A DNA stretch of 64,000 nucleotides. Source: Acinetobacter sp. XH1741. GTDB lineage: Bacteria; Pseudomonadota; Gammaproteobacteria; Pseudomonadales; Moraxellaceae. A model generated the notes under the pieces. That model worked only from the letters and a program-made list of their open reading frames with translations, did not search any database and was not told the origin of the DNA. The translations under genes and the position numbers were made by a program. This document shows, in pieces, positions 4,716 to 34,005 of this stretch. The stretch is taken from contig NZ_CP157428.1 of the NCBI RefSeq assembly GCF_041021895.1, positions 2,790,001 to 2,854,000 on the forward strand, read 5' to 3'. Positions within the stretch are counted from its first letter, which is position 1. Each line of letters begins with the position of its first letter.

Positions 4716-4750
4716 AAGGGCCGTTGTTTTGCTAACAACAGCCCTTTTGT
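4716..4750. terminator. Bidirectional terminator between mdcR and madM
   Basis: Inverted repeat AAGGGCCGTTGTT / AACAACAGCCCTT (one internal mismatch) with a 5-base loop. T runs follow on the plus strand and A runs precede, so it can stop both converging transcripts. Confidence 0.82.
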
Positions 4751-4768
4751 TTAAGCACTATATGCCTA

Positions 4769-5942: not shown

Positions 5943-5998
5943 GACAATCCCTCATATCCTTGGATCATTTATGCTTTTGTAAATCAGATTCAAAAAGA

Positions 5999-6928: not shown

Positions 6929-6940
6929 ACTATCTATTCC

Positions 6941-9215: not shown

Positions 9216-9507
9216 GAGCAATCTCCTCTAATGCTTGTTCCAGACGTAAGCGAACAACGCCAGGAGTTGCACCAAAGTCATGAATATCAATATTGACCGC
9301 TGGTGGTATTTGAGCAGTAAAAATCCGTTCAAAAAGATTGTGCCAACGTGCTGCACTGCCATCTACGGAGGTGACGACATGAATAGAAGTTTTTCCCTTT
9401 TCACCGGGTTCCATCAGAATTTCTAAATCACCCGAACCCACACACCCCACCAACGCTTTTTTTACAGGTGGTTCTGTGCCCACAAATTCAAAATGAAGTG
9501 TTTCCAT
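9208..9507 (-). CDS. mdcC: Malonate decarboxylase acyl carrier protein (delta subunit)
   Basis: MdcC carries the covalently bound prosthetic group on which malonyl and acetyl are exchanged. The 99-residue protein contains the attachment motif VGSGDLEIL, with the serine at residue 25, the position known to be modified in this family. The ATG at 9507 is 2 bases beyond the mdcB stop and is preceded by GAGGGA. It is smaller than and unrelated in sequence to fatty-acid ACPs. Confidence 0.93.
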   Translation of the reverse strand: METLHFEFVGTEPPVKKALVGCVGSGDLEILMEPGEKGKTSIHVVTSVDGSAARWHNLFERIFTAQIPPAVNIDIHDFGATPGVVRLRLEQALEEIAHD

Positions 9508-9509
9508 AA

Positions 9510-10394: not shown

Positions 10395-12073
10395 TACCAA
10401 CTCCTAAATTTTGCAGGAGGTTGATATAGCCCATCGGACCATGTCACTAAGTCGGCAATATTTTTTGCAGCTAAAAGCTCACGTGTCGCATCAGTGCGGC
10501 GAATACCTAAATCTTCAGGGAATACCACTAGGCCTTCGCTTCTTAAACGTGCTGTGGTTTTAGGGTCCTGAGTTAAACCAATACTGGTCACGCCTGCCAC
10601 CGCAGCAATCATGGCTTGGCGCTCTTCTTGGCTGCTTGCTTTATATAGATAAGCAATGCCTTCTTCGGTAAGTAAATGGGTTACATCATCGCCATAAATC
10701 ATGATCGGTGCTAAAGGCAAACCTGCTGTTTTAGCAACATCAATCGCATCAAGGCGTTCTACAAAAGTTGGTTTGCCACCCTCTTGGAAAGTTTCCACCA
10801 TTTGAACAACCAGCTTTTTACCACGTGCCAAATAAGTTTCTGTTTCATTAGCACCTTGCAAACGCATATCAAGCCATGCTGGCGTATCGTGACGACGGCC
10901 ACGCGGATCATGCCCCATGTTTGGTGCACCACCAAAGCCCGCTAAACGCCCTTTGGTAACAGTTGAAGAATGCCCCATACCATCAATTTGCAAAGTCGCA
11001 CCAATAAATAGATCAACGGCGTATTGACCTGCGAGCTGACACATCATGCGGTTGGAACGTAAAGCGCCATCACGACCTGTAAAGAAAACATCAGGCCGAG
11101 CTGCAACATATTTTTCCATACCGAGTTCGGTACCAAAGCAATGCACGCTTTCAACCCAACCTGTTTCAATCGCTGGGATTAAGGTTGGATGCGGATTTAG
11201 TGTCCAGTTTCGGCAGATTTTTCCTTTTAACCCCAAAGACTCACCATAGGTCGGTAAAATCAGTTCAATTGCTGCCGTGTTAAAACCAATGCCATGATTT
11301 AAAGATTGCACATTATGCTTTTCATAAATTCCGCGAATTGCCATCATGGCCATAAGTACATGTACTGGCTTGATGTGTTTCGGGTCACGCGTAAATAACG
11401 GTTCGATATAAAAAGGCTGATCTGCAACTACCACATAATCCACCCACGAAGCAGGAATATCAACACGTGGTAAATCGGTTACGTCATCGACCAGTTCATT
11501 GACTTGAACAATCACAATACCATCACTAAAAGCGGCAGGTTCAATAAGTGCTGGAGAATCTTCGGTACTTGGACCTGTATAAATATTGCCTTGACGATCT
11601 GCCATAAAGCCCGCCGAAAGCACCACATTTGGAATGAGGTCAACCACCAAACGCGAATACAATTCAATATAGGTATGAATCGCACCAATCTCTAATCGTC
11701 CATCTTCAATTAACTGGCTAATACGTAAACTTTGTGGGCCAGCAAAAGAAAAATCGAGCTTACGCGCAATGCCTTTTTCAAACAGATCAAGATGTTCCGA
11801 ACGTCCAACGCTTGGCATGATCATATGTAAATCATGCAAAACATCTGGATTGGTTTGTGCCAAAGAGCGCGATAAGAAATCGGCCTGCTTTTGGTTATTT
11901 CCTTCGAGTACAACTCTGTCACCCGGAGTAATCAGGGTTTCTAAAACTTTAATAATGTCTTGAGTTGGAATGACCACACCATCGGTATATTGGTTTGCCA
12001 TCTCTAGTTTTAGTTGTTTGGCATGACGCCGCTTTGTCCATAACCGTTCTTTATTCTGAACTGAACCTTCCAT
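10394..12073 (-). CDS. mdcA: Malonate decarboxylase alpha subunit (acetyl-S-ACP:malonate ACP transferase)
   Basis: MdcA exchanges malonate for acetate on the carrier protein: acetyl-S-ACP plus malonate gives malonyl-S-ACP plus acetate. The 559-residue protein is of CoA-transferase type and matches the usual size. The N-terminal WTKRRHAK block and internal glycine-rich stretches such as GRLAGFGGAPNMGHDPRGR are typical. The start was placed at the ATG at 12073, with AGG 8 bases upstream; the frame remains open for another 23 codons without a better site. It is the first gene of the operon, preceded by a 403-base gap with operator-like repeats. Confidence 0.92.
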   Translation of the reverse strand: MEGSVQNKERLWTKRRHAKQLKLEMANQYTDGVVIPTQDIIKVLETLITPGDRVVLEGNNQKQADFLSRSLAQTNPDVLHDLHMIMPSVGRSEHLDLFEKGIARKLDFSFAGPQSLRISQLIEDGRLEIGAIHTYIELYSRLVVDLIPNVVLSAGFMADRQGNIYTGPSTEDSPALIEPAAFSDGIVIVQVNELVDDVTDLPRVDIPASWVDYVVVADQPFYIEPLFTRDPKHIKPVHVLMAMMAIRGIYEKHNVQSLNHGIGFNTAAIELILPTYGESLGLKGKICRNWTLNPHPTLIPAIETGWVESVHCFGTELGMEKYVAARPDVFFTGRDGALRSNRMMCQLAGQYAVDLFIGATLQIDGMGHSSTVTKGRLAGFGGAPNMGHDPRGRRHDTPAWLDMRLQGANETETYLARGKKLVVQMVETFQEGGKPTFVERLDAIDVAKTAGLPLAPIMIYGDDVTHLLTEEGIAYLYKASSQEERQAMIAAVAGVTSIGLTQDPKTTARLRSEGLVVFPEDLGIRRTDATRELLAAKNIADLVTWSDGLYQPPAKFRSW

Positions 12074-12156
12074 GTGTTTACCTATAGATCGCAGTTTTGT
12101 TCTGAATCTATAAAAACGCTTTATTGACTTTCGATCAATCAACCTACATCAGCAGT

Positions 12157-19491: not shown

Positions 19492-20340
19492 ATGAGTGAT
19501 TCAAACTATATTCCTCCACAAGTTTGGCAATGGACTGGAGAGAAAACCGATTTAAACCAACCTACTTCTGGTGCGCGTTACGAGCATACACTTCCAGTAG
19601 GGAAACATCCGCTCCAGCTCTACTCTTTAGCAACGCCTAATGGTCAAAAAGTCACTATTTTGCTAGAAGAGCTTTTAGCATTAGGACATCAAGATGCTGA
19701 ATATGATGCTTGGTTGATTAAAATCGGTGAAGGACAGCAATTTGGTAGTGGCTTTGTCGAAGTTAATCCAAACTCTAAAATTCCAGCATTGGTTGACCAT
19801 AGCCAAAACCCACCATTAAGAGTGTTTGAATCTGGCTCAATTTTGCTTTACTTGGCTGAAAAATTTAAAGCTTTCATTCCAACTGATATTGCAGCACGTA
19901 CTGAATGCCTCAATTGGTTATTCTGGCAAATGGGCAGCGCGCCTTACCTAGGTGGTGGTTTTGGGCATTTTTATGCTTATGCACCCGTTAAAATTGAATA
20001 TGCGGTTAACCGCTTTGCCTTGGAAACAAAACGTTTACTTGATGTGTTAGATAAGCATCTAGCAAAGCATGAATATTTGGCTGGTTCTGAATATAGCATC
20101 GCTGATATTGCAGCATTCCCTTGGTATGGTGGTCTTGTTAAAAACTGGGTGTATAACGGCGCGGAGTTTTTAGGCGTCGATCAGTATAAAAATGTTCAAC
20201 GTTGGGCAGATGCGATTTTAGCGCGCCCTGCGGTACAACGCGGGCGTATGGTCAACCGCACCTTTGGCGATTTAGCCACACAGTTGCATGAACGCCATGA
20301 TGCAAGTGATTTTGAGACGAAGACTCAAGATAAAGTTTAA
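19492..20340 (+). CDS. yghU: Glutathione-dependent disulfide-bond oxidoreductase, YghU-like
   Basis: This 282-residue Nu-class glutathione transferase acts on organic hydroperoxides and disulfides with two bound glutathiones. It matches E. coli YghU along its length, including the N-terminal VWQWTG block, LPVGKHPLQLYSLATPNGQK, VEVNPNSKIPAL, FESGSILLYLAEK, LGGGFGHFYAYAPVKIEYA and the terminal ERHDASDFET. It is the second gene of the pair and is followed by a strong terminator. Confidence 0.92.
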   Translation: MSDSNYIPPQVWQWTGEKTDLNQPTSGARYEHTLPVGKHPLQLYSLATPNGQKVTILLEELLALGHQDAEYDAWLIKIGEGQQFGSGFVEVNPNSKIPALVDHSQNPPLRVFESGSILLYLAEKFKAFIPTDIAARTECLNWLFWQMGSAPYLGGGFGHFYAYAPVKIEYAVNRFALETKRLLDVLDKHLAKHEYLAGSEYSIADIAAFPWYGGLVKNWVYNGAEFLGVDQYKNVQRWADAILARPAVQRGRMVNRTFGDLATQLHERHDASDFETKTQDKV

Positions 20341-20356
20341 TCGTCATTGTTAAAAT

Positions 20357-20387
20357 AAAACCCACTTTTGATCAGACAGTGGGTTTT
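20357..20387 (+). terminator. Terminator after the yghU-like gene
   Basis: Inverted repeat AAAACCCACT / AGTGGGTTTT with an 11-base loop. The T-rich ends allow it to serve both the yghU-like gene and the convergent DUF2000 gene. Confidence 0.8.
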
Positions 20388-20407
20388 ATAATCTTCCAAT
20401 AAAAACC

Positions 20408-20815
20408 TTATTGATGCAAAGAAAGCCCTTTAATTGCCTTATCAACTGCTTTTTTAGGCCCTCTTAACGCCACTCCAACTAAATTTAATTGATTCGCATC
20501 TTCAGCCAAAAAGACAGCTCGATTATCCTCATCATTTCCTGTAGAAAACATGGCATGTACATAGGGAACTATCGTTAAATCTTGCTCAATTCCTTTGCGG
20601 TGCGCTTTTTGTAGACCAGCTAACTCCCCCTCAAAAACTAAGATTGGCTGCCCTAGCATATTGCCATACTCATAACCATTGGCATCGATATAAGGCTTAC
20701 CCAACATTTCAGGTACAGCAGAGGCAATCCCCGTTGCCAAAAAAGCTACCACATTTAATCTCTGCCACGTCGCTAGATCATTACGGACAATCAACGCAAT
20801 TTTTGTGTCAAACAT
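20408..20815 (-). CDS. DUF2000-family protein
   Basis: This 135-residue protein has the DUF2000 start FDTKIALIVRNDLATWQRLNVVAFLATG and the middle stretch YGNMLGQPILVF. The family is of unknown function; its fold resembles peptidyl-tRNA hydrolase 2. It diverges from a LysE-type exporter across a gap with a perfect 16-bp inverted repeat. An AraC regulator follows the exporter. DUF2000 genes often sit near AraC regulators and exporters, so the three may form one response unit; this is inference. Confidence 0.82.
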   Translation of the reverse strand: MFDTKIALIVRNDLATWQRLNVVAFLATGIASAVPEMLGKPYIDANGYEYGNMLGQPILVFEGELAGLQKAHRKGIEQDLTIVPYVHAMFSTGNDEDNRAVFLAEDANQLNLVGVALRGPKKAVDKAIKGLSLHQ

Positions 20816-20875
20816 AACCCTCTATCCTGAGTCATAACTTTAAGTCACTCATCATGACTCATTCAGGTTTTTCTC

Positions 20876-20917
20876 GTCTTGTACGTTTGTGCGGAAGTCA
20901 TCACAAACGTACAAGAC
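20876..20917. promoter_or_regulatory. Perfect 16-bp inverted repeat between DUF2000 and LysE genes
   Basis: Left arm GTCTTGTACGTTTGTG and right arm CACAAACGTACAAGAC are exact reverse complements separated by 10 bases. The element starts 61 bases upstream of the DUF2000 start and ends 52 bases before the LysE start. It therefore lies in both 5' regions and is not a terminator of either gene. Length and symmetry suggest an operator, possibly for the AraC-type regulator nearby, or a hairpin in the 5' leader. Confidence 0.6.
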
Positions 20918-20969
20918 CATAAATTTACGAGTCACTATGCTGAGTTGTTTTTATTTCAGTAGATACGTT

Positions 20970-21572
20970 ATGGAAATCTTTTTTTATACCTTGAGTGTGA
21001 TGTATAGCCCCGGTCCAGTAAATTTTATGGGGCTAAACGCTGGGCTAACAGGACAATTCAAAAAAACGATTTATTTTTTTATAGGTGTCGGTTGTGCAAT
21101 GCTGATGCTATTCATGATTTTTGGATATATCGGCGCCGCGATCATTCCACAAAATGCCTTGCACTATATTGCCTTGTTCGGTGCACTTTATACGTTTTAT
21201 CTTTCATATCAAATGCTAAAGTCAGATATCGATATTAGGGATGAAGCTACTGAAGTTCAGGCACTTTCGTTCTGGAATGGTTTTTGGATACAAGCTTTAA
21301 ATCCGAAAGGAATTTTAGTGATTTTGCCTGTTACAACCATTATGTACCCCACAACACATATTACTGGCATTCAAATCTTTTTAGTGTCATTGCTCATTTC
21401 GATAGGTGCCGCAGGCGCACCCTGCCTTTACTCTTGGGCAGGTGCAGTGTTAGGTAAAAAAATTAAAAATAAAATCTGGTTTAATCGTATAAACAAAGCC
21501 ATGGGAACAATGCTGATCATTTCTGGCATATTTATGCTTTATGATTTTTTGAAAGGTATGCATCTAATTTAA
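20970..21572 (+). CDS. LysE-family exporter
   Basis: This 200-residue inner-membrane exporter is of the LysE/RhtB type, with six hydrophobic segments. The N-terminal motif SVMYSPGPVNFMGLNAGL corresponds to the conserved PGP motif, and FWNGFWIQALNPKGILVILP to the NPK motif of the family. Substrates are usually amino acids or small amines. The start was placed at ATG 20970; a longer frame from 20889 would begin inside the 16-bp inverted repeat. An AraC regulator is convergent downstream. Confidence 0.85.
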   Translation: MEIFFYTLSVMYSPGPVNFMGLNAGLTGQFKKTIYFFIGVGCAMLMLFMIFGYIGAAIIPQNALHYIALFGALYTFYLSYQMLKSDIDIRDEATEVQALSFWNGFWIQALNPKGILVILPVTTIMYPTTHITGIQIFLVSLLISIGAAGAPCLYSWAGAVLGKKIKNKIWFNRINKAMGTMLIISGIFMLYDFLKGMHLI

Positions 21573-21621
21573 GATAAAGTCTATGTCAGCCTAAAAACAA
21601 ATTGACTTTTGAATAGCTTGC

Positions 21622-22440
21622 TTAAGAAGATAGCTTATTGATCATCCGCCATCTGGCTGGCGTTAAACCGAACGCTTTTAGAAAATGACGTGTCATATGG
21701 CTTTGATCAAAAAAACCTGCAATTAAAGAAGCTTGAGTCAAAGACTCTCCATACATTAAACAAGACTTTACTACTTCCAATCTACGCATAGTCATATATC
21801 GATGTGGACTTGTACCAAATAGCAATCGGAAGTCCCGTGAAAGACTCCAGCGGTCTCGTCCAACATTTTTTTCAATATCATCTAAAGAGATATTTTCATA
21901 TAAAGAGGCATGTATAAATTCTCTAGCACGCTCCGCTGCGACATAGTCATAAGTATGTGAGGTACGCTGATTATTACCAGAAATATCGTAAAGCGTGGTT
22001 GCCAAATCATAGAGAGCATCTTGATTCTCTAAAAGGTCAATATGTTGATCCATTCCTTGCAATAAAACATCAGTTGCCTTAAATAACCGAGGGTCCTGAC
22101 TCAACCCATTCTCAAAAAATGGTAAAGGTTTACCCTTCATAATTTCCTGTAGCATTGCAGGTTTTATATATACCATCCGGTATCTAAAACCGTCTCGCGT
22201 ACCTGACTCTCCATCATGTTTTTCATCAGGATGTATAACCATGGTCATGCCCGGCTGGCTATGTTTCATCTCTCCGCGGTAATGAAAGCTTTGCACACCC
22301 GTTAATGTTCGACCAATTGCAAAAGTATCATGACGATGCGACTCGTAAGCATGATCGGTAAAAAATGCTTCTATTCTTTCCAGACTATCTGGGTCAGAGT
22401 CCCTGACAATCCAATCACTTGCATTGGGTAGTTCAATCAC
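21622..22440 (-). CDS. AraC-family regulator
   Basis: This 272-residue regulator has an N-terminal cupin-like sensor domain (SHRHDTFAIGRTLTGVQSF ... MVIHPDEKHDGE) and a C-terminal pair of helix-turn-helix units (SLDDIEKNVGRDRWSLSRDF and LTQASLIAGFFDQSHMTRHFLKAFG, followed by TPARWR). It lies tail-to-tail with the LysE-type gene and may control it and the DUF2000 gene. The inducer is unknown. Confidence 0.88.
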   Translation of the reverse strand: MIELPNASDWIVRDSDPDSLERIEAFFTDHAYESHRHDTFAIGRTLTGVQSFHYRGEMKHSQPGMTMVIHPDEKHDGESGTRDGFRYRMVYIKPAMLQEIMKGKPLPFFENGLSQDPRLFKATDVLLQGMDQHIDLLENQDALYDLATTLYDISGNNQRTSHTYDYVAAERAREFIHASLYENISLDDIEKNVGRDRWSLSRDFRLLFGTSPHRYMTMRRLEVVKSCLMYGESLTQASLIAGFFDQSHMTRHFLKAFGLTPARWRMINKLSS

Positions 22441-22500
22441 ATATTCACCAAAATTTTATATGTGCTAGAGAGCATTCTACCTATACGTTATACGCTATCG

Positions 22501-23403
22501 TTATTTTGAAAAATAGCCTGTATATAACTCACTCAGCCAAGCGACAAAAACTCGTACGCGTGGCGAGAGCTGCCTGTGCTGCGGATATAAAGCAGAAACT
22601 GACATCTTCGGGATTTGCCATTCAGATAAAACCTCAACCAGTTGCCCGTCTTTTAACTCATTCGCTACATGATAGCGCGGGACCTGAATTAAACCTGCCC
22701 CACGTAAAGCAGATAATACATAGTTTTCAGCATCATTTACCGCGATCCAGCTTTTCAAAAAATAATCTTGTTTTTTGCCATTCACCATCAATTCAAATGG
22801 ATAATTCCGCCCGCCAGATGTCGAAAAGAAATTAACACAATAATGTGATAACAAATCCTCTGGTTGCTGAGGTGTTCCATGTTTATTTAAATAGTCAGGA
22901 CTTGCACAAATGACTTGTGGCATATCAACCAAATGTCTAGCAATTAAAGTGGAATCATCCAAACGTCCCGCTCTCACCACACAGTCTATCCCTTCCCTAA
23001 TCAGATCAACCAAGCGATCACCCGTACTAATTACAAGTTCAATGTCGGGATATAACTCGTGAAATTGGTCGATATTCGGTAAAACAATTTTAGTCGCATG
23101 TGCACCTGATAAATCGATACGTAGTAAACCACGGGGCTGAGCAATTACATTACGTAAGGACGATTCGGCATCATCGAGTTCCGATAATATTTGTGTACAA
23201 CGCTCATAAAATGCCTGTCCATCTAGTGATGGCCTTACATGCCGAGTCGTCCGCTCTAGCAAACGACACTGTAAATTATTCTCTAACTCTTTAATGGCAT
23301 TACTTGCTGTAGCGCGTGGGATATTTAGCTGATCGGCTGCCTGACTAAAACTACCCAGCTCTACGATGCGGGTAAAAAGTTGCAAGGTATCAAATTTATC
23401 CAT
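22501..23403 (-). CDS. LysR-family regulator
   Basis: This 300-residue LysR-type regulator has the helix-turn-helix IVELGSFSQAADQLNIPRATASNAIKELE at the N-terminus. The sensor domain contains REGIDCVVRAGRLDDSTLIARHL, typical of the group that controls short-chain dehydrogenases and efflux genes. It is divergent from the SDR gene at 23529 across 125 bases, so that gene is the likely target. Confidence 0.87.
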   Translation of the reverse strand: MDKFDTLQLFTRIVELGSFSQAADQLNIPRATASNAIKELENNLQCRLLERTTRHVRPSLDGQAFYERCTQILSELDDAESSLRNVIAQPRGLLRIDLSGAHATKIVLPNIDQFHELYPDIELVISTGDRLVDLIREGIDCVVRAGRLDDSTLIARHLVDMPQVICASPDYLNKHGTPQQPEDLLSHYCVNFFSTSGGRNYPFELMVNGKKQDYFLKSWIAVNDAENYVLSALRGAGLIQVPRYHVANELKDGQLVEVLSEWQIPKMSVSALYPQHRQLSPRVRVFVAWLSELYTGYFSK

Positions 23404-23528
23404 GGTGCTCGCTTTTAACCCTGTCCATTATTAATAAATATGGAATTATCTTATCCAATTATGAAGATTTATCCCATATTTCTATATTATTAAAATAAGC
23501 CATACCTACTTAAACAGGCAATCTAAAA

Positions 23529-24266
23529 ATGAATATTTCAAAAAAAACAGCTCTTGTTACTGGTGCTTCACGCGGTATTGGTCGTGCTATTGCAGAACGT
23601 TTAGCTCAAGATGGTTTTTATGTGATTGTTAACTATGCTGGCAATGCAACTCATGCCCAAGCAGCTGTAGATCACATTATTGAGCAAGGTGGCCAAGCCT
23701 CTACTATTCAAGCCGATGTTGCAAATGAACATGATGTCAGCCGTTTATTTCAAGAAGCAAAAGCCATTAACGGTCAATTAGATGTCGTGGTTCATAGTGC
23801 GGGGATTATGCCTATGGCAAAAATTACACCTGAAGCTCTGCCTGATTTCGATAAAGTAATTCATACCAATTTACGTGGTGCATTTTTAATATTGGCGCAT
23901 GCAGCCGAAACAGTGCCAGATGGTGGTCGAATTATTACGCTTTCAACGAGTGTAATTGCTAAATCTTTTCCGGCATATGGCCCCTACATTGCTTCAAAAG
24001 CAGGTGTAGAAGGCTTGGTACATGTGTTAGCAAATGAGTTACGCGGACGCAATATCACTGTAAATGCAGTTGCGCCCGGTCCAACAGGTACTGACCTTTT
24101 TTACAATGGAAAAACTGACGAGCAGGTTTCGGCTATTGCAAAACTTGCCCCACTGGAAAGAATTGGAACACCTGAAGAAATTGCCAGTGTAGTTGCCATG
24201 CTAGCTGGTCCAGATGGACGTTGGGTAAATTCACAAGTCATTCGAGTAAATGGTGGATTTGCTTAA
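23529..24266 (+). CDS. Short-chain dehydrogenase/reductase
   Basis: This 245-residue NAD(P)-dependent oxidoreductase has a classical SDR layout. It has TGASRGIGRAIAERL for cofactor binding, HSAG in place of NNAG, the catalytic serine in LSTSV, and YIASK with catalytic Tyr and Lys. The C-terminal NAVAPGPTGTDLF loop fits FabG-like members that accept small carbonyl substrates. The substrate is unknown. The gene is divergent from a LysR regulator. Confidence 0.9.
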   Translation: MNISKKTALVTGASRGIGRAIAERLAQDGFYVIVNYAGNATHAQAAVDHIIEQGGQASTIQADVANEHDVSRLFQEAKAINGQLDVVVHSAGIMPMAKITPEALPDFDKVIHTNLRGAFLILAHAAETVPDGGRIITLSTSVIAKSFPAYGPYIASKAGVEGLVHVLANELRGRNITVNAVAPGPTGTDLFYNGKTDEQVSAIAKLAPLERIGTPEEIASVVAMLAGPDGRWVNSQVIRVNGGFA

Positions 24267-24503
24267 TTTTTAAAACCGTGTGGATTATTTTAATTCACAT
24301 GGTTTTATTAACTATTAATATTATTAATCCATCAATTTTAATTAAAGAAGGATATAAGCTTAATGAATACTTTTTTATAAAAATATCCCACATTCTTATT
24401 TATCAAAATAATATATATAAATAGATATTCCTTATTTTTGCTTATATTTAAAAACGCGTAAATTGAACAATAACAATCTGAATCGAAGATAAGGATATAT
24501 TCA

Positions 24504-25013
24504 ATGAATGCAAAATTAAATACAGAAGCTCCACAAAGCTTTATCTCAAATGATTCAAATACATCCTTTTCATCTGAAGAAATTCTTTCTCAAGCACAGC
24601 AATACGCACAAGACCATGAGCTGAATTTTAGTGGCAGTTTATCACCTCATGATGCATGGCAACTCGTACAACAAGGCGAAGCTGTTTTAGTTGATGTGCG
24701 TACCAATGAAGAACGTAAATTTGTGGGTTATGTTCCTGAAAGTGTTCATGTCGCGTGGGCAACAGGCACATCCTTTAACCGCAATCCACGCTTTTTAAAA
24801 GAACTCGAATCAAAGGTCGGCAAAGATAAAACCATTCTTTTGTTATGCCGTAGTGGCAACCGTTCAGCACAGGCAGCAGAGGCCGCATTTAATGCTGGAT
24901 TTGCGCACATTTATAACGTTCTTGAAGGCTTCGAAGGCGATCTAAATGATCAGCAACAACGTAATCAGAAAAATGGCTGGCGCATCCATCAACTTCCTTG
25001 GCAACAAGACTAA
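24504..25013 (+). CDS. Rhodanese-domain sulfurtransferase of the encapsulin locus
   Basis: This 169-residue single-domain rhodanese should move sulfane sulfur through a persulfide on its active-site cysteine (Cys115 in the loop CRSGNRS). Other motifs are VLVDVRTNEERKFVGYVPES and the final NVLEGFEGD. The first 50 residues are polar and probably extended. It has an AAGGA ribosome site and is followed 18 bases later by the serine acetyltransferase gene. Rhodanese and serine acetyltransferase genes are the known companions of family 2A encapsulin/cysteine desulfurase pairs, so a role in delivering or collecting desulfurase sulfur is likely. Confidence 0.9.
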   Translation: MNAKLNTEAPQSFISNDSNTSFSSEEILSQAQQYAQDHELNFSGSLSPHDAWQLVQQGEAVLVDVRTNEERKFVGYVPESVHVAWATGTSFNRNPRFLKELESKVGKDKTILLLCRSGNRSAQAAEAAFNAGFAHIYNVLEGFEGDLNDQQQRNQKNGWRIHQLPWQQD

Positions 25014-25031
25014 TACTTTAATCAATTTTCA

Positions 25032-25973
25032 GTGAATCAAGGAAAGCTTGTGACTCAATGGAACATTAATGCGGTTGTACAAGGTTTACAACAGGCAAGG
25101 CATGACTGGCGTCAGCAACAACACAGGACCAAAGAATTTGGGGGCCGTGAACTTCCATCTAAAGAAGCTTTAAAAGCCATTTTAGATGACCTGTGCGGAA
25201 TTTTATTTCCAATGCGTTTAGGCCCTGCCGACTTACGCCAAGAAACTGAAGATTCTTATATTGCCTATACTTTAAATCGTGTACTCACAGCCTTACATGC
25301 GCAAGTACAACTGGCTTTAAATTATGAAGCAAAACGTCATTTGAGTCATTCGAATACAGTCCAACAACCCGAGGAACTTGCTCAAACTATTGTGCAGGAT
25401 TTTGCCAACACCTTGCCCTCTATACGACGTCTTTTAGACGGCGATGTGCGTGCTGCTTATGAAGGTGATCCGGCGGCGCATAGTGTGGATGAAGTATTAC
25501 TTTGCTATCCGGGCATATTTGCGATTATTCATCATCGAATTGCGCATCAGCTCTATACCCAAGTGCCTTTATTGTCTCGCATTATTTCCGAGTTGGCGCA
25601 TTCTGCAACAGGTATTGATATTCATCCGGGTGCGCAAATCGGTAAAGGATTTTTTATTGATCATGGCACAGGTGTGGTGATTGGTGAAACCAGTGTTATT
25701 GGGGAACGTGTCCGTATTTATCAGGCCGTAACCCTTGGGGCTAAACGATTTGAAACGAATGATGATGGTGGTTTGAAAAAAGACTATACACGCCATCCAA
25801 TTGTTGAAGATGACGTGGTGATCTATGCAGGTGCCACTATTTTAGGTCGTATTACGATTGGGCGAGGGTCCATTATTGGGGGGAATGTCTGGCTTACGCA
25901 TAGTGTGTCCGCAGGTAGCCAGATTTTACAGTCACCGAATGAGTCTTATCAGAAAAATCATATTGCCGGTTAA
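25032..25973 (+). CDS. Serine O-acetyltransferase (EpsC/SrpH type)
   Basis: This enzyme makes O-acetylserine from serine and acetyl-CoA, the carbon precursor of cysteine. The 313-residue protein has an N-terminal helical domain and, from about residue 190, a left-handed beta helix of hexapeptide repeats. The latter includes DIHPGAQIGKGFFIDHGTG, VIGETSVIGERVRIYQ and ATILGRITIGRGSIIGGNVWL. It is longer than housekeeping CysE and fits the type linked to SrpI encapsulins. The start codon is GTG at 25032; a second GTG follows at 25050. Cysteine made from its product would be substrate for the encapsulated desulfurase. Confidence 0.9.
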   Translation: MNQGKLVTQWNINAVVQGLQQARHDWRQQQHRTKEFGGRELPSKEALKAILDDLCGILFPMRLGPADLRQETEDSYIAYTLNRVLTALHAQVQLALNYEAKRHLSHSNTVQQPEELAQTIVQDFANTLPSIRRLLDGDVRAAYEGDPAAHSVDEVLLCYPGIFAIIHHRIAHQLYTQVPLLSRIISELAHSATGIDIHPGAQIGKGFFIDHGTGVVIGETSVIGERVRIYQAVTLGAKRFETNDDGGLKKDYTRHPIVEDDVVIYAGATILGRITIGRGSIIGGNVWLTHSVSAGSQILQSPNESYQKNHIAG

Positions 25974-26041
25974 AACTATAAATGTGAAATAAATAGATAA
26001 GGAGATGAATAAACAAAATTATGTATTAATTAAATGCTTAT

Positions 26042-26169
26042 TTCTAGTTTAAATATATTTTTATTTAAAAAATAGATAACTCATTAATAAGCCCTCAATT
26101 TAAAAAATATACAACGCTATTTTTATTTTAAAACCAGAACTAATTCTAGTTTATATGCATCCTAGAATT
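26042..26169. promoter_or_regulatory. Operator-like repeats upstream of the encapsulin gene
   Basis: The 236-base AT-rich gap before the shell gene contains TTCTAGTTTA twice (26042-26051 and 26144-26153). It also holds a perfect inverted repeat AATTCTAG (26142-26149) / CTAGAATT (26162-26169). The arm centres are 20 bases apart, two helical turns, and the second arm ends 40 bases before the shell ATG. This suggests a separate regulated promoter for shell and cargo; the binding protein is unknown. Confidence 0.4.
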
Positions 26170-26209
26170 TTTATTTTCAAAAAGCCAATGTAATAAGGAA
26201 AAATGATTC

Positions 26210-27142
26210 ATGGCGAAAAATACTGACAAAGCCCAACTTGCTCTTGGGGACCACGCAGCGCGTCAACTGGCCAATGCAACCAAGACTGCTCCCCAACTTT
26301 CTACAATTACTCCCCGATGGCTGACTCACTTACTTCAATGGCTCCCTGTTGAAGCAGGTATTTATCGCTTAAACCGTGTCAATAATACCGATGATATTCA
26401 GGTGGCTTGTACACAACGTGATGAAGCAACTTTACCTCAAACTTTTGTTGATTATGACCCAGAACCACGCGAATACTTTTTAAATGGCGTATCTACTGTT
26501 TTAGATGTACATACTCGTGTTGCAGACCTTTACAGCAGCCCGCATGACCAAATTAAAGAACAGCTCCGCTTAACCATTGAAACCATTAAAGAACGTCAAG
26601 AAAGTGAGCTCATCAATAATCCTGAATATGGTTTATTGGCGAGTGTGACAGATGACCAACGTATTTCGACTTTAAATGGCCCACCTACTCCAGATGATCT
26701 TGATGATTTGTTACGTAAGGTTTGGAAAGAACCAGGGTTTTTCCTAGCGCATCCTGATGCAATTGCAGCATTTGGCCGTGAATGTACACGCCGTGGTGTA
26801 CCGCCTCCAACGGTTAGTCTGTTCGGTTCGCAATTCATTACATGGCGCGGTATTCCACTTATTCCATCAAATAAAATTCCTGTAGAAGATGGCAAAACTA
26901 AAATCTTGCTGCTTCGTGTTGGTGAAAAGCGTCAAGGGATCGTTGGTTTGTTCCAACCAGGTCTTGCGGGTGAACAGTCACCGGGGCTTTCAGTACGCTT
27001 TATGGGCATCAACCGTAACGCAATTGCGTCGTATCTAATCTCGTTATATTGCTCACTTGCAGTACTCACTGATGATGCGTTGGCAGTATTAGATGATGTG
27101 GAGGTGGACAAATATCATGACTACCCAGTTAACTACAAGTAA
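26210..27142 (+). CDS. srpI: Family 2A encapsulin shell protein (SrpI-like)
   Basis: This 310-residue protein is the shell protomer of a family 2A encapsulin, an HK97-capsid-fold nanocompartment. Blocks typical of SrpI homologues are LGDHAARQLANATKTAPQ at the N-terminus, ITPRWLTHLLQWLPVEAGIYRLNRV, and the P-domain region RQESELINNPEYGLLASV. Also seen are RKVWKEPGFFLAHPDAIAAFGRECTRRGVPPPTV and the C-terminal LSVRFMGINRNAIASYLISLYCSLAVL. It lacks the extra cyclic-nucleotide-binding domain of family 2B. The desulfurase gene behind it overlaps by 26 bases and carries the cargo extension. Shells of this family are reported to hold cysteine desulfurase in Synechococcus and, as I recall, in Acinetobacter, where sulfur storage was proposed. 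Confidence 0.93.
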   Translation: MAKNTDKAQLALGDHAARQLANATKTAPQLSTITPRWLTHLLQWLPVEAGIYRLNRVNNTDDIQVACTQRDEATLPQTFVDYDPEPREYFLNGVSTVLDVHTRVADLYSSPHDQIKEQLRLTIETIKERQESELINNPEYGLLASVTDDQRISTLNGPPTPDDLDDLLRKVWKEPGFFLAHPDAIAAFGRECTRRGVPPPTVSLFGSQFITWRGIPLIPSNKIPVEDGKTKILLLRVGEKRQGIVGLFQPGLAGEQSPGLSVRFMGINRNAIASYLISLYCSLAVLTDDALAVLDDVEVDKYHDYPVNYK

Positions 27143-29078
27143 TCTGCAAGGTAGTCCAACAGGGCCTGAAGTGACTGGTGTTAATCCACCAGCCAACTTC
27201 CCTGATGAGTCCACCATTGCTCGTCTTGCTAATGAGTTTTTTTCAGCATTACCAAGCTCAAGCAGTTCAGCTTCTCCATCGGGCCTTAATTTGGACTTAC
27301 CTGTCGGAGCACCACCTCACCCACCGCAACCGAGTGAACCATTTTCTGCACTCAGTGGTCGTGCGCCCAATATCGCCTTTCAGAAAAGTCTCAATCCGGA
27401 ATATCCTGAACATATTCCAAATTTGCCAGACTACCCTGAACGTCGAATTGTAGCGTCTGCGCCTGTGGTTGGTGGAGCTAATTTGCCACGCCCACCATTT
27501 GAGCCACATTTGCCACAAGCTACTCATAGTGAACCAAATGTGCCACGCATTGAACCCAGCTTACCCACTGGTGCTGGTGAATCACCTTATTATTTTTTAA
27601 ATGATTTTTCTGCTCCCAATGCAGCAGAACCGTCTGTTAAAGGTGTTGAAGATAATTATTCGGTTGCGCAGTCTTTTCAATTGCCACATGGTGACCAGCT
27701 GAAATCATTGCTGACAGAAGATCGTTTTGCAACGAATACGCCTCCCCAAAGTTCAGCAAGCTCTGCATTTTATTTTTTAGACTTGCCTCAAAGTGGACAA
27801 AGTTATAGTCACTATCAACCATCGCAACCCACTTTTGTAGCAAGTAGTGCTCAACCACTCGATGTACATGCTATACGTCGCGATTTCCCAATTTTACAGG
27901 AACGCGTCAATGGCCGCCCTCTAGTTTGGTTGGATAATGCTGCGACCACACAAAAACCGCAGCGCGTGATTGATCGGATTGCTTATTTTTATCAGCATGA
28001 AAACTCAAATATTCACCGTGCTGCCCATGAGTTAGCAGCTCGTGCAACCGATGCCTATGAGCATGCAAGAAATGTAGTTGCCCGTTTTATTGGTGCACCC
28101 TCTTCTAAAGAAATTATCTTTGTTCGAGGAACAACCGAAGGCATTAACCTGATTGCAAAAACATGGGGTGAGCAAAATATTGGTGAAGGTGATGAAATTA
28201 TCGTTTCTCACTTAGAACACCATGCCAATATTGTGCCTTGGTATCAACTCACTAAAAAAACTGGAGCGAAATTAAGAGTCATTCCTGTGGATGACACGGG
28301 CCAGATTATTTTAGAAGAGTTGCCAAAACTGATTAATGAACGCACTAAACTGCTGTCAATTACTCAAGTTTCGAATGCTTTGGGAACAGTTACACCTGTT
28401 GCTGAAGTCATTAAAATTGCGCATGCAAAAGGTGTACGTGTTTTAGTTGATGGTGCTCAATCCGTTTCTCACATCCCTACCGATGTACAAGCTCTCGATG
28501 CAGACTTTTTTGTGTTTTCTGGACATAAAGTGTTTGGGCCGACGGGCATTGGCGCGGTATATGCAAAACCAGAGTTGCTAGAAAGCATGCCTGTTTGGGA
28601 AGGCGGCGGTAACATGATTCAGGATGTGACCTTCGAACAAGTAGTTTACCAACCTGCACCAAACAAGTTTGAAGCTGGAACTGGAAACATTGCCGATGCT
28701 GTCGGATTAGGCGCTGCGCTTGAATATGTCGAGAGTCTAGGCATTCATAACATTGCTCGCTATGAACATGATCTACTCGAATATGGTCAAAATGCACTGA
28801 GCAGTGTGTCTGGTTTACGTTTGATCGGAACAGCGCATCACAAAGCCAGTGTTATGTCCTTTACCTTACAAGGCTATTCAACGGAACAAGTGGGCAAAGC
28901 TTTAAATCAACATGGTATTGCGGTACGTTCTGGCCACCACTGTGCACAGCCAATTTTACGTCGTTTTGGTGTAGAACAGACCGTGCGTCCGTCTTTAGCT
29001 TTTTATAATACGACTGAAGAAATTGATTTATTGGTTTCGGTGTTACATCAACTGACGCGTAATAGGCGTAGCAATTAA
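27117..29078 (+). CDS. Encapsulated cysteine desulfurase with disordered N-terminal cargo domain
   Basis: This 653-residue PLP enzyme removes sulfur from cysteine, giving alanine and a cysteine-bound persulfide. Residues about 250-653 form a complete SufS-like desulfurase. Lys471 in SGHKVFGPTG binds PLP, and Cys609 in RSGHHCAQPILRRFG is the persulfide carrier. The first 250 residues are rich in Pro, Ser and Ala and look disordered, as in the cargo domain that tethers such desulfurases inside family 2A shells. Short conserved patches stand out: IARLANEFFSALP (34-46), YPEHIPNLPDYPERRIVAS, YYFLNDF (158-164) and FYFLDLP (218-224). The ATG at 27117 has GGAGGTGG upstream and lies inside the shell gene's end. 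The extra upstream frame is not used. Confidence 0.94.
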   Translation: MTTQLTTSNLQGSPTGPEVTGVNPPANFPDESTIARLANEFFSALPSSSSSASPSGLNLDLPVGAPPHPPQPSEPFSALSGRAPNIAFQKSLNPEYPEHIPNLPDYPERRIVASAPVVGGANLPRPPFEPHLPQATHSEPNVPRIEPSLPTGAGESPYYFLNDFSAPNAAEPSVKGVEDNYSVAQSFQLPHGDQLKSLLTEDRFATNTPPQSSASSAFYFLDLPQSGQSYSHYQPSQPTFVASSAQPLDVHAIRRDFPILQERVNGRPLVWLDNAATTQKPQRVIDRIAYFYQHENSNIHRAAHELAARATDAYEHARNVVARFIGAPSSKEIIFVRGTTEGINLIAKTWGEQNIGEGDEIIVSHLEHHANIVPWYQLTKKTGAKLRVIPVDDTGQIILEELPKLINERTKLLSITQVSNALGTVTPVAEVIKIAHAKGVRVLVDGAQSVSHIPTDVQALDADFFVFSGHKVFGPTGIGAVYAKPELLESMPVWEGGGNMIQDVTFEQVVYQPAPNKFEAGTGNIADAVGLGAALEYVESLGIHNIARYEHDLLEYGQNALSSVSGLRLIGTAHHKASVMSFTLQGYSTEQVGKALNQHGIAVRSGHHCAQPILRRFGVEQTVRPSLAFYNTTEEIDLLVSVLHQLTRNRRSN

Positions 29079-29096
29079 ATCTATTTTTAGACTAGA

Positions 29097-29123
29097 AAAG
29101 ACTGCTTTTGAGCGGTCTTTTTT
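29097..29123 (+). terminator. Terminator of the encapsulin-desulfurase operon
   Basis: Stem AAAGACTGC / GCGGTCTTT (one G-T pair) with a 6-base loop is followed by six T. It lies 19 bases after the desulfurase stop. Confidence 0.85.
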
Positions 29124-29166
29124 ATAAATTATTTACTGAACCTTCTTGATCGCAACTTCATATATA

Positions 29167-29240
29167 GGAACAAGTCAAAGTAGCTATCACAGAGGAGTCT
29201 TATTATTTAAAATTCGATTTCTAGGTTAGCCTTCGGCTCG
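29167..29240 (+). repeat. Imperfect direct repeat, copy 1
   Basis: This copy shares GGAGTCTTATTAT, GATTTCTAGG and TAGCCTTCGGCTCGA, in the same order and spacing, with the copy at 29396-29469. About one base in six differs. It is directly followed by the CTTACTTTGG hairpin, which the second copy lacks. Confidence 0.7.
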
Positions 29241-29395
29241 ACTTACTTTGGTTTCGCCCAAAGTAAGCAAAAGCATTTTCATCTGCAAAACCTGTCCTCT
29301 TCTTATATCTAATCGATATATCGCAGAAACATAGATTGTTTAATACCACGCAGGTTGCAGATGATTTTAGCTCGAATTAAGAGTCATCAATAGTT

Positions 29396-29469
29396 CGGAC
29401 AACTCAAAGTGGTTATTACAATGGAGTCTTATTATCTGAAATTAGATTTCTAGGTAGCCTTCGGCTCGA
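29396..29469 (+). repeat. Imperfect direct repeat, copy 2
   Basis: Second copy of the unit at 29167-29240, about 229 bases downstream. The shared end TAGCCTTCGGCTCGA is itself a small stem (GCC-TTC-GGC) with a stable loop. Confidence 0.7.
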
Positions 29470-29713
29470 GCTAAGAGTCATCTACAGCCTGCCCATAATT
29501 TTTAAAAATAATGTTTTTGCAATATTTTCTGATAGATGAAAACTGTTAACAGGTTCTGTAGATGAGAAAGTTTTTTGGTTACTTTTTTCAAAAAAAGTAA
29601 CAGAATTAGCTACTTTCTATTGGTATATAAACGATAGGACTCCGCCTTGCTAATCTAAAAAACTTGCAGATAATTTTTAGGACCAGCAAATACTCAAAAC
29701 ATATCCAGCTTAT

Positions 29714-30352
29714 TTAAACAAACAATCCCCAAATCAACCTTAACGCAATCCCAATCAACAACACTCCCATCACCCGCTCAAAATAAACCCCAAATTCCAA
29801 AAATCTTTTACGTACAATAGGCTGTGCAAACAGGACACTTACCACCATAAACCAAATAGCATTGACCATACACATCCATATCCCATAAAAAACCTGAACT
29901 TTCATCGGTGTGGTCGTACTCACAATCGTCGTAAAAATTGCCAGAAAAAAGATGGTGGCTTTTGGGTTCAATGCATTGGTTAAGAAACCCATCGTAAAAG
30001 ATTTAAACAAACTTGGAGCATCACTATCAGTTTGGCTATTAATCTCAATATTGATATTCGGCTGGCTACGTAAACACTGCCATCCTAAATAAATCAAATA
30101 AGCTGCGCCCGCTGTTCTGATCAGTGACATCAGCCATTCACTTTGTTGAATCAAAAAGCCAATACCAACCAGTGTATAAAACACATGTACTGAAATCCCA
30201 ACACCAATACCAATTGCGGTCAGACATCCAATGAAGTAGCCATAACGTACACTTTGTCTTACCGTAATCACAAAATCTGGTCCCGGTAAAATCACCGCCA
30301 TAAAGTGAATAAGAGCTAGCGTTAAAAACTCATGTCCATACAACTGCCACAT
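29714..30352 (-). CDS. LysE-family translocator
   Basis: This 212-residue inner-membrane exporter of the LysE/RhtB family has the motif ILPGPDFVITVRQSVRYGY near residue 20 and TMGFLTNALNPKATIFFLAIF in the middle. Exported substrates in this family are amino acids or homoserine lactone-like compounds. It is divergent from a LysR regulator, 90 bases away, which is the probable controller. Confidence 0.88.
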   Translation of the reverse strand: MWQLYGHEFLTLALIHFMAVILPGPDFVITVRQSVRYGYFIGCLTAIGIGVGISVHVFYTLVGIGFLIQQSEWLMSLIRTAGAAYLIYLGWQCLRSQPNINIEINSQTDSDAPSLFKSFTMGFLTNALNPKATIFFLAIFTTIVSTTTPMKVQVFYGIWMCMVNAIWFMVVSVLFAQPIVRKRFLEFGVYFERVMGVLLIGIALRLIWGLFV

Positions 30353-30442
30353 AACAATTTAGTTCCTAAAAATCACCTAAAAGATTGTATTGCGATTTTT
30401 TAGACGCGATAATCCAATTAAAATCCAAATAACTTTTGCCTC

Positions 30443-31372
30443 ATGAGCACAAATCAAAGTCTGGTTCTGTTAAATGAAATGGCGACTTTCGTTAAGGTTG
30501 TCGAGTCGGAAAGTTTTTCTGAAACTGCAAGGCAACTTGGTACCACACCTTCTGCTGTTAGTCGTGCAATTGCTCGTTTAGAACGAGCTTTAGGTACCCG
30601 CTTACTCTATCGGACTACCCGAAAACTTCGTTTAAGTGAAAGTGGACAACAGGTCTATCAACGTTGTTTAGATATGGTCAATGCGGCACAAGCAGTGATG
30701 GAAAGTTCGGGGCAATTTCATGTCGAACCTGAAGGTATTATTCGCATGAGTGTTCCCAAAGCTGTCGGGCATTTTATGATTCATCCGCATTTACCCGAGT
30801 TTTTAGATCGCTACCCGAAAATTGATATACAAATGCTATTAGAAGATCGTTATGTAGACCTGATTGATGATGGAGTCGATTTAGCACTTCGAATTACAGA
30901 GCAACCACCGGGTGGCCTTATGGGTCGAAAGCTCATTGATATTGATCATTTGGTTTGTGCTACGCCTGAATATTTGGCCAAGCATGGTACACCGAAGCAT
31001 CCTCATGATTTAAAGCAGCATGAATGTATTTACTTGGGTGAGCAAGCCAGTGACTCAAAATGGAAATTTCAACAGGGAAATAAATCGATAAGTGTGGCTG
31101 TGCGTGGTCGTTATGCAGCAAACCATACCGGTGTGCGTTTGAGTGCTGCATTACAGCATTTAGGTATTGCGAGCTTGCCATACTTCGTTGCACGCCATGC
31201 ACTACAACAAGGTAGCTTAGTTCAGGTTTTACCAGATTGGTATTTTAAGACCTATTATAGTGGTGGGCTGTGGTTACTTTACCCACCGACACGACATGTT
31301 CCGCCTAAATTGAGTGTGTTGATTCAATATTTGGCAGATAAATTAGCAGCAGAGCCGACTTTAAAAATTTAG
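30443..31372 (+). CDS. LysR-family regulator
   Basis: This 309-residue LysR-type regulator has the helix-turn-helix VVESESFSETARQLGTTPSAVSRAIARLE and a sensor domain with DDGVDLALRITEQPPGGLMGRKL. Its location opposite the LysE-type exporter suggests control of amino acid export. It is convergent with the ABC importer operon downstream and is probably not its regulator. Confidence 0.87.
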   Translation: MSTNQSLVLLNEMATFVKVVESESFSETARQLGTTPSAVSRAIARLERALGTRLLYRTTRKLRLSESGQQVYQRCLDMVNAAQAVMESSGQFHVEPEGIIRMSVPKAVGHFMIHPHLPEFLDRYPKIDIQMLLEDRYVDLIDDGVDLALRITEQPPGGLMGRKLIDIDHLVCATPEYLAKHGTPKHPHDLKQHECIYLGEQASDSKWKFQQGNKSISVAVRGRYAANHTGVRLSAALQHLGIASLPYFVARHALQQGSLVQVLPDWYFKTYYSGGLWLLYPPTRHVPPKLSVLIQYLADKLAAEPTLKI

Positions 31373-31433
31373 ACGGCTCTTAGCTCAAGCAAATACTATC
31401 TAGAATCCTAGTCATTAAGGGCTATGAGTAAAA

Positions 31434-32300
31434 CTACTCAACCAATAGATCTTTTGGATTAATCGTATCGCCATAGACTGGTTTTAACGTTTTTTCATAA
31501 GCCTGATGAATCACGCCTTCCTTAGCCAGTTTCTCTAAATCTTGGTTTAACCAATCCAGCAACTCTTTATCACCCTTTTTCACTGCTGGCGCAATTAAGT
31601 CCTGCTCACCTAAATTGGTAATGCCAACGGTGTAATTTGGATTTTCTTTAGCCCAAGCTAAAACCAGCAAGTTATCATGTGCAAGCGCAGCACCACGACC
31701 ATCTTTTAAAGCATCAAAAGTTTCAGTGTTTTGTTCATACTTTTGTAATTTAATTTCAGGATGAGTCTTGGTGAAGAATGAATCAGCTGTCGTCCCTTTG
31801 TTTACCAACAAAGTTTTATCTTTAAGTTGAGCAACATCGGTAATCGGATGACTTTTAGGAGAAACCACACCTAGTGCCACTTTTAGGTAAGGCTTAGCAA
31901 AATCGACAACTTCTTTACGTTCTGGCGTAACGGTAAAGTTGGCAAAAATAATATCCACTTTATTGGCTTTTAAGTATTCGACACGGTTAGCCGCTTCAGT
32001 TAAAACAAACTCAACTTTATTTTCATCACCCAGCAAATCTTTAGCGACATGCTTAGCAATCTCTACATCAAAACCTTGATTTTTACCTTGAGCATCTAAA
32101 TATCCAAACGGCGGTTTATCACTAAATACACCAATTCGTACCACGCCGTTCTTTTTGATCTGTTCAATACTCGACACAGTTTGTGTGGTATCTGCCGTTT
32201 TTTCAGTAGACTGAGTTCCTTTGTCACATGCAACTAAACCTAAACTCAGTAAAGACGCAGCTAAAATATGCTTCACGTTTTGAAATGTTAATGTTGTCAT
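31434..32300 (-). CDS. Amino-acid ABC transporter substrate-binding lipoprotein, probably cysteine
   Basis: This 288-residue binding protein has a lipoprotein signal ending at Cys25 (LGLVAC) and the family 3 solute-binding fold. PFGYLDAQGKNQGFDVEIAKHVAKDL and FTVTPERKEVVDFAKPYLKVALGVVSPKSHPITDVAQLKDKTLLVNKGTTAD are shared with the cysteine-binding protein CjaA of Campylobacter as I remember it. Cysteine is thus the best guess for the ligand, but cystine or another amino acid is possible. It is a paralogue of the next gene, and both are transcribed with the two permeases and ATPase upstream. Confidence 0.82.
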   Translation of the reverse strand: MTTLTFQNVKHILAASLLSLGLVACDKGTQSTEKTADTTQTVSSIEQIKKNGVVRIGVFSDKPPFGYLDAQGKNQGFDVEIAKHVAKDLLGDENKVEFVLTEAANRVEYLKANKVDIIFANFTVTPERKEVVDFAKPYLKVALGVVSPKSHPITDVAQLKDKTLLVNKGTTADSFFTKTHPEIKLQKYEQNTETFDALKDGRGAALAHDNLLVLAWAKENPNYTVGITNLGEQDLIAPAVKKGDKELLDWLNQDLEKLAKEGVIHQAYEKTLKPVYGDTINPKDLLVE

Positions 32301-32382
32301 TATTTCACCCTATCATTCTTGTAAAAGTCTTATTTAAAATCGCAGCGCCTACTGCTAGACACTGTTTTAGCGATATCGAAAA

Positions 32383-33243
32383 TTATTGGCCTACATCTAA
32401 AAATACATTCGGATTGACCGAGTCACCGTAAATTGGTTTCAAGGTTTCATCATAAATTTTATTAATTTCACCACTTGTTCTGAGCTGCTTAATTTCAGTA
32501 TTAAGCCAATTCAATAATTGGGTATTGCCCTTTTTAACTGCTGGCGCAATAAACTCTTGATCACCAATAGACTGAATGCCTGCTACATAGCTTGGGTTCT
32601 TCGCGGCCCATGCCAAAGCATAAGTACTATCTTGTGAAATCGCGTCACCACGACCATCAGTTAATGCTTTGAAGGCATCCGAGTTTCTTTCAAACTTAAG
32701 TAAATTTACTTTTGGATAATGCTTGGTAAAGTAGGTATCTGAACTTGTGCCTTTGTTTACAATTAAGGTTTTACCTTCTAATTGAGCAATGTCAGTAATC
32801 GGCTTAGCTTTAGGCGAGACAATACCAAAAGCACCTTTTAAATAAGACTCGGCAAAATCGACAACCTCTTTACGTTCTGGCGTTACCGTAAATGTCGCGA
32901 ATACAACATCGGCGCGATTCGATTTTAAAAACTCCACCCGATTTGAAGCTTCAGTCACAATAAACTCAACTTTCTTTTCATCACCGAGCAAATCTTTAGT
33001 CACCCGTTTTGCTAAAGCCACATCAAAGCCTTGATTATTACCTGCACTATCAACGTAACCAAACGGCGGATCATCGGCAAAAACGGCAACGCGTAGAACT
33101 CCATTTTTTTTGACTTGCTCTAAAGAATGGTCTGCTTGAGCATTACTTGCCTGTTCAGTTGATGGCGTTTTACTACATGCAGTTAACAACACCCCAGCAA
33201 CAGCAAGACTGCTTAATATTTTTATCGAATTACGTTTAAACAT
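32383..33243 (-). CDS. Second paralogous amino-acid-binding lipoprotein
   Basis: This 286-residue solute-binding lipoprotein has a lipobox at Cys23 (VLLTAC). It matches the downstream paralogue over its whole length, for example DDPPFGYVDSAGNNQGFDVALAKR, ATFTVTPERKEVVDFAESYLKGAFG and VNKGTSSDTYF. Two binding proteins served by one membrane complex usually mean widened or tuned ligand range. It lies 30 bases after the ATPase gene, with 82 bases before the second binding-protein gene. Confidence 0.82.
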   Translation of the reverse strand: MFKRNSIKILSSLAVAGVLLTACSKTPSTEQASNAQADHSLEQVKKNGVLRVAVFADDPPFGYVDSAGNNQGFDVALAKRVTKDLLGDEKKVEFIVTEASNRVEFLKSNRADVVFATFTVTPERKEVVDFAESYLKGAFGIVSPKAKPITDIAQLEGKTLIVNKGTSSDTYFTKHYPKVNLLKFERNSDAFKALTDGRGDAISQDSTYALAWAAKNPSYVAGIQSIGDQEFIAPAVKKGNTQLLNWLNTEIKQLRTSGEINKIYDETLKPIYGDSVNPNVFLDVGQ

Positions 33244-33273
33244 TCACTTCCTCATGATTCAAATAATAAAAAT

Positions 33274-34005
33274 TTAGTACGACAAAATATTTAGAAAGGC
33301 TTTCGCTCGTTCTGTTTTTGGCTGTTCAAAAAATTCTTCTGGTGAAGCCTGTTCAATAATCTTGCCCTTATCCATAAAAATAATGCGGTCAGCAACCTTA
33401 CGTGCAAAGGACATCTCATGTGTCACAATCAACATGGTCATTCCTTCATTCGCTAACTTGAGTACTACATCGAGCACTTCCCTCACCATTTCCGGGTCAA
33501 GCGCAGCGGTAATTTCATCAAGTAAAATCACTTGAGGTTGCATGACCAGTGAACGGACAATGGCTATACGCTGTTTTTGTCCACCAGAAAGTTGTCGTGG
33601 ATAATCAAGTTTTCGCTCATATAGCCCGACTCGCTTTAGCAATTCATCTGCGACTTGTTCAGCTTCATCACGGTGGCGTTTTTGTACTTTGAGTGGTCCA
33701 AGCAAAATATTGTCAATGACGTTCATATGCCCAAATAGCTCATAGTTTTGAAAAACCATGCCAATTTTTTGACGAGCATTAGTCCAGTCCACATCTTTAC
33801 CAAGCACACCTGAGCCAGTTAAACGGATTTCACCACCCTGAATCGGTTCCAAGCCATTAATACAGCGCAATAAAGTACTTTTTCCGCAGCCCGATGGACC
33901 TAAAATAACAACCACTTCTCCTTGTTCTACATCCAGATCAATGCCCTGTAAAATATGACTTTGTGCAAATGATTTCTGTAATTGTTGTATCGATAACAAA
34001 AGCAT
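33274..34005 (-). CDS. Amino-acid ABC transporter ATP-binding protein
   Basis: This 243-residue ATPase of a polar amino acid importer has Walker [10 protein letters not shown], the Q-loop [14 protein letters not shown], signature LSGGQKQR, Walker [13 protein letters not shown] and the H-loop VTHEM. The start at ATG 34005 follows GGGAG and lies 2 bases after the permease stop. The longer open frame reads into the permease gene and is not used. Confidence 0.92.

Follow-up and report, generated by a model that had tools for sequence, protein, structure and literature searches.

A predicted family 2A desulfurase encapsulin operon in Acinetobacter sp. XH1741 and its distribution in the genus

The 64,000-nt stretch of Acinetobacter sp. 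XH1741 analysed here (NZ_CP157428.1, positions 2,790,001 to 2,854,000; hereafter the window) carries at 24504–29078, all on the + strand of its list of open reading frames (ORFs), genes for a rhodanese, an EpsC-type serine O-acetyltransferase (SAT), the shell of a family 2A encapsulin and its SufS-like desulfurase cargo. Feature coordinates are positions in the window, and L and G labels denote fetched stretches and genomes, respectively. Judged from sequence, this locus is very likely an operon for a family 2A desulfurase encapsulin and the ortholog of a system known from Acinetobacter. Because that system has already been published, and structurally solved, in a close relative, we regard the locus as a known one; what is added here is a 5.4-kb bounded unit with an empty site, two architectures in the genus and a 61-nt upstream block. 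The results show how this known sulfur-storing compartment is distributed in its genus, as a discrete operon that is either present or absent.

The preliminary description, made from the letters alone, had named the four genes, and the ORF list together with profile matches placed all of them where it had put them. It had also proposed a search against family 2A profiles; this search was run, and both shell and cargo exceeded their NCBIfam cut-offs. The shell (26210–27142, +, 310 residues) scored 542.8 bits against the family 2A model NF041162, for which the cut-off is 380. It shares 308 of 310 residues with PDB entry 8t6r, which we take to be the shell that Benisch et al. 2024 described from A. 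baumannii, and the two substitutions fall at residues 45 and 83. From this identity and from homology to 6x8m, an HK97 fold is predicted for the shell. The HK97 core also matches 9bje, 9bix and 9bhu, presumably family 2B encapsulins, which differ in possessing a cyclic-nucleotide domain. The family 2B model likewise exceeded its cut-off for the window shell (431 versus 400 bits), with its best stretch at model positions 209–449 of 450 and a second stretch that also passes, but the family 2A model scores higher. PMC12407261 uses the cyclic-nucleotide-binding (cNMP) domain to separate family 2B from 2A; no such domain is among the Pfam matches of the 310-residue shell, for which PF19307 is the sole match at E 0.001 or better. 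Ratios of nonsynonymous to synonymous change (dN/dS) were calculated for the window against five relatives, in the most distant of which (L043) synonymous change is near saturation. For the shell these ratios were 0 to 0.03, corresponding to very strong purifying selection.

The cargo gene, a cysteine desulfurase, overlaps the end of the shell gene. Its longest ORF (27093–29078) scored 924.1 bits against NF041166, the family 2A cargo desulfurase model with a cut-off of 800, and the SufS model covers residues 260–655 of the 661 encoded. The start is probably the ATG at 27117, giving a protein of 653 residues (27117–29078, +) and an overlap of 26 nt; among collinear loci with a match from the first residue of the query onward, 37 of 37 keep an ATG at this position. 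The overlap with the shell and the long head, both claimed in the preliminary description, were upheld, and the start is more likely here than at the longest-ORF position. The head (residues 1–255; 27117–27881, +) is rich in Pro, Ser and Ala, which together make up 35% of the 51 heads compared, and its composition fits a disordered, low-complexity segment. SGHK occurs in 51/51 cargos and RSGHHC in 39/51, and the window cargo has both; we assume these to be the motifs of the catalytic pyridoxal-phosphate lysine and the persulfide cysteine. PMC8049743 gives LARLANEFFS and AASPYYFLDG as cargo-loading motifs in Synechococcus. The window head contains close matches to both, the second one twice: IARLANEFFS at residue 34, SPYYFLNDF at residue 156 and SAFYFLDLP at residue 216. 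A loose form of the first motif was found in 43 of the 51 loci and a loose form of the second in all 51, with two or more copies in 43; of 10,200 shuffled heads, 101 contained the second motif. The dN/dS of the cargo was 0.03 to 0.04. Together, the shell and cargo models, the lack of a cyclic-nucleotide domain, the loading motifs and the catalytic motifs all agreed with family 2A.

Two genes precede the shell. The rhodanese (24504–25013, +) is a single-domain protein of 169 residues with the active-site loop CRSGNRS and Cys115; it scored 59 bits against PF00581 (cut-off 22.2) and aligned end to end with PDB entry 8w14 (E 1.4e-104, 155/168 identical). The SAT (25032–25973, +, 313 residues) begins with GTG, matches 3f1x at E 2.2e-74 and exceeds the cut-off of the EpsC model NF041874 (162.5 versus 150 bits), and it falls below the TIGR01172 CysE cut-off (166.8 versus 210.65). 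The motif DHGTG is present in all 48 loci with a SAT match. The dN/dS values were 0.07 to 0.23 for the rhodanese and 0.04 to 0.10 for the SAT. A housekeeping CysE that does exceed the TIGR01172 cut-off is located about 55 kb from the locus (G000:C1:2760530). The operon SAT lacks a terminal isoleucine, which was considered as a sign against cysteine synthase binding; this argument was dropped because the housekeeping CysE (L090, by eye) likewise ends without one. A transposon study (PMC12604733) names a rhodanese gene and a cysE among its genes, but no connection of either one with the operon could be made.

In a sample of 149 Acinetobacter genomes, the shell was found in 50, at 51 places, comprising the window and 50 fetched stretches. 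The cargo match overlaps the shell end at every one of these loci, and in the stretches first fetched a rhodanese and a SAT match were each found at 48; because of this regularity, the gene order is not a matter of chance. Contig cuts account for one rhodanese and one SAT miss at L059 and for one SAT miss at L063. Two architectures were observed. In 38 loci the order rhodanese, SAT, shell, cargo is collinear, and in 9 loci the SAT is divergent and lies upstream of the rhodanese. A tenth candidate for the divergent kind is L063, where sequence of this kind precedes the rhodanese and the contig then ends. L059 lies at a contig edge, and the last two of the 51 loci (L087 and L089) both come from G093. 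For one shell of this genome, the rhodanese and SAT lie about 9 kb upstream, with positions 1263–10287 of the wider stretch L194 between SAT and shell; this insert contains ORFs that by eye resemble a TonB-type uptake cluster, including a TonB-receptor-like ORF of 1013 residues. The second locus of G093 (L195) has SAT, shell and cargo.

Comparison by blastn with L193 of G007, a related genome without a shell match, gave the boundaries of the whole unit (24275–29696, +, 5,422 nt), which includes the upstream region, the four genes and a terminator-like hairpin. Its alignment to the window runs through 24274 at 89% identity and resumes at 29697 at 93%; between the two, G007 has 64 nt (L193 5197–5260) in place of the entire unit. 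Since this single empty site has exact ends, the 5,422-nt unit behaves as a discrete present-or-absent module. Loss by G007 and absence of acquisition are both compatible with the data. Near the right-hand end, the stretch 29170–29487 between the hairpin and a LysE-type gene holds imperfect direct repeats (57 and 24 nt), and blastn gave overlapping matches from several relatives around 29441–29655.

The closest known system is that of A. baumannii, which belongs to another genome of a close relative and differs from the window by the two shell substitutions; three A. baumannii records of a plasmid collection cover 91–96% of 24267–29713 with 91.7–92.4% DNA identity. The preliminary description had mentioned sulfur-storing versions from Acinetobacter, and the shell identity and the title of Benisch 2024, as cited in PMC10960027, are in accordance with this. 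Its statement that rhodanese and SAT are co-occurring parts of family 2A systems also agrees with our data, since both are present here and PMC8346489, which counts A. baumannii among encapsulin-bearing pathogens, reports that among the accessory genes of these operons the strongest enrichment is that of acetyltransferases and rhodaneses. Synechococcus elongatus SrpI/CyD (6x8m, 6x8t) shares the shell family (510.7 bits) and the cargo type, and its loading motifs have close matches in the window; a term search of the text of PMC8049743 found 'rhodanese' and 'serine acetyltransferase' 0 times.

Upstream of the rhodanese, in a region of 80% AT, a block of 61 nt (24399–24459, +) aligns without gaps in 38/38 collinear loci, where it occurs in 24 distinct versions around an invariant TTATTT core. 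We suggest that it is probably a promoter/operator. When the home genome was searched with a sequence-only model of the block, its own site scored E 1.6e-11 and the next best 0.136. Matches at E 5.7e-5 or better were obtained in 40 of the 149 genomes, all of them encapsulin-positive, and the 10 encapsulin-positive genomes that gave none are of the divergent type, including that of L063. The best match in an encapsulin-negative genome was 6.6e-4, under stricter filters by which weak matches were lost. Because 38 of the 40 block-positive genomes had supplied the model, the informative observations on specificity are the matches in the two other genomes, G108 and G093, and the lack of strong matches in the 99 encapsulin-negative genomes. 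In G108 the block is on a contig other than that of the shell; in G093 it stands just before the distant rhodanese. The block is specific enough to serve as bait for its regulator, which makes the timing of compartment production testable.

The AT-rich gap between SAT and shell (25974–26209, +; 80.5% AT), partly conserved in an alignment of 19 loci, possibly holds a second promoter. An internal promoter is hinted at because the shell and cargo frames of G093 are intact about 9 kb from the rhodanese, the SAT and the usual block. Downstream of the cargo gene, the terminator-like hairpin (29093–29124, +) has a stem of 14 pairs, 4 of them G-C, and a T-rich tail. No RNA family exceeded its gathering score in 20000–34000.

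Control of CysB type through the 61-nt block was considered and is not claimed. Apart from a single strong site, the home genome gave 25 weak matches to the block model, none better than E 0.136; by eye, no sulfur genes were recognised in the ORFs around 17 of these 25. When 21 sbp promoter sequences were turned into a weight matrix, the region upstream of the rhodanese ranked high among all positions, but the picture was mixed once scores were judged against 150 column-permuted matrices. Upstream of the rhodanese, 7 of the 19 loci reached z values of 2.5 to 4.1, and one control on the opposite strand reached 4.7. For the SAT-shell gap, z was 3.0 in the window (1/150 permuted matrices as good) and 5.1 in L080, and the opposite strand of L085 scored 4.8. 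None of five further intergenic stretches of the window exceeded 1.2.

Several of our results weigh against the desulfurase encapsulin operon reading. Upstream of the window rhodanese itself the sbp matrix gave z = 0.3 and established no sulfur-responsive control. A promoter scan returned 13 sites compared with 14.9 in shuffles, and a terminator scan of 24200–29720 returned 2 sites compared with a shuffle mean of 5.4, so that the hairpin alone is weak evidence. In L073 (G144), the rhodanese frame stops after 54 residues, the match continuing beyond the stop and the shell and cargo frames being open, and near one of the two G093 shell loci no rhodanese was found in the wider stretches examined. 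From these last two cases, the rhodanese may not be essential.

According to the desulfurase encapsulin reading, the shell would assemble into a small icosahedral compartment, as reportedly shown for a near-identical shell protein. Inside it, the desulfurase would convert cysteine to alanine and sulfane sulfur, which could accumulate as elemental sulfur; the Acinetobacter shell of Benisch 2024 (Sci Adv) reportedly holds this form. The cargo would be loaded through the motifs of its head, by analogy with the head-dependent loading in Synechococcus described in PMC8049743. By making more O-acetylserine available, the SAT would increase the supply of cysteine, and stored sulfur would be accepted or mobilised by the rhodanese; this division of labour, already drawn in the preliminary description, runs along lines found in PMC8346489. 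The four genes would form one unit from the conserved upstream block to the terminator-like hairpin, with a possible second promoter before the shell.

Different roles for the same genes would follow if sulfur were channelled rather than stored, the shell secluding the desulfurase and thereby reserving its sulfur for the co-encoded rhodanese, for cofactor or Fe-S use. Such channelling is proposed in PMC8346489. The rhodanese matches at 48 of the 51 loci, plus one more in G093, are in accordance with it, and the two rhodanese exceptions in G093 and L073 are not. Moreover, elemental sulfur is said to have been found in the shell in the published Acinetobacter work, and we consider channelling in place of storage unlikely. 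Alternatively, the shell may mainly boost or restrain the desulfurase in sulfur starvation, and the sulfur deposit would then be an overexpression by-product. The sbp score of the SAT-shell gap in the window (z = 3.0, 1/150) favours this explanation, and so do the Synechococcus data of PMC8049743, in which sulfur starvation raises expression of the shell and the desulfurase is more active when encapsulated. However, the same source reports that Synechococcus knockouts have no growth defect under starvation, no signature of starvation could be established in the region preceding the rhodanese, and the opposite-strand z values of 4.7 and 4.8 arose in two relatives; we give this role little credence as well. 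Since the HK97 fold is shared by encapsulins and phages, the shell gene might also be a remnant phage capsid lying beside unrelated sulfur genes by chance. A family 2A score far over the cut-off, the pairing with the cargo at 51/51 loci and purifying selection leave almost no room for this.

A general stress or stationary-phase programme, rather than sulfur starvation alone, could conceivably provide the trigger. One published table bears on this (PMC11348943): the shell is lower in a tagP mutant of A. baumannii ATCC 17978 (log2 -1.85 for RNA, -2.57 for protein); katE, otsB and a KGG protein fall in the same direction among 31 genes, and H-NS rises. A dedicated regulator could then act on the 61-nt block, or H-NS could silence and release it, with storage switched on within such a programme, although we hold this to be a rather improbable, speculative combination. 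If true, this would answer the question of the trigger and place the shell among the means by which Acinetobacter survives. A link with desiccation and stress genes was looked for and not adopted: of the encapsulin-positive genomes 22/50 have the KatE C-terminal domain, against 45/99 of the encapsulin-negative ones (Fisher p = 1), and for a DtpC homologue at E 1e-60 or better the figures are 25/50 and 43/99 (p = 0.49). In the absence of katE or dtpC co-occurrence with the encapsulin, this link is kept as a hint only.

The window itself contains genes of this kind. A KGG-motif protein of 467 residues is encoded at 48820–50223 (-), with about 16 tandem 66-nt repeats (48901–49950), and it is perhaps a hydrophilin belonging to the desiccation cluster of PMC13232832. 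At 52189–55823 (-), 23–27 kb from the locus, a large katE-type catalase gene lies behind a haem-oxygenase-like gene, and this pair is arranged like the dtpC-katE desiccation operon that the same source describes. A TAA was flagged inside the dtpC-like match at 12 places in relatives. Elsewhere, malonate decarboxylase genes are located at 7540–12142 (-), with the alpha subunit at 10394–12142 and the gamma subunit at 7540–8367.

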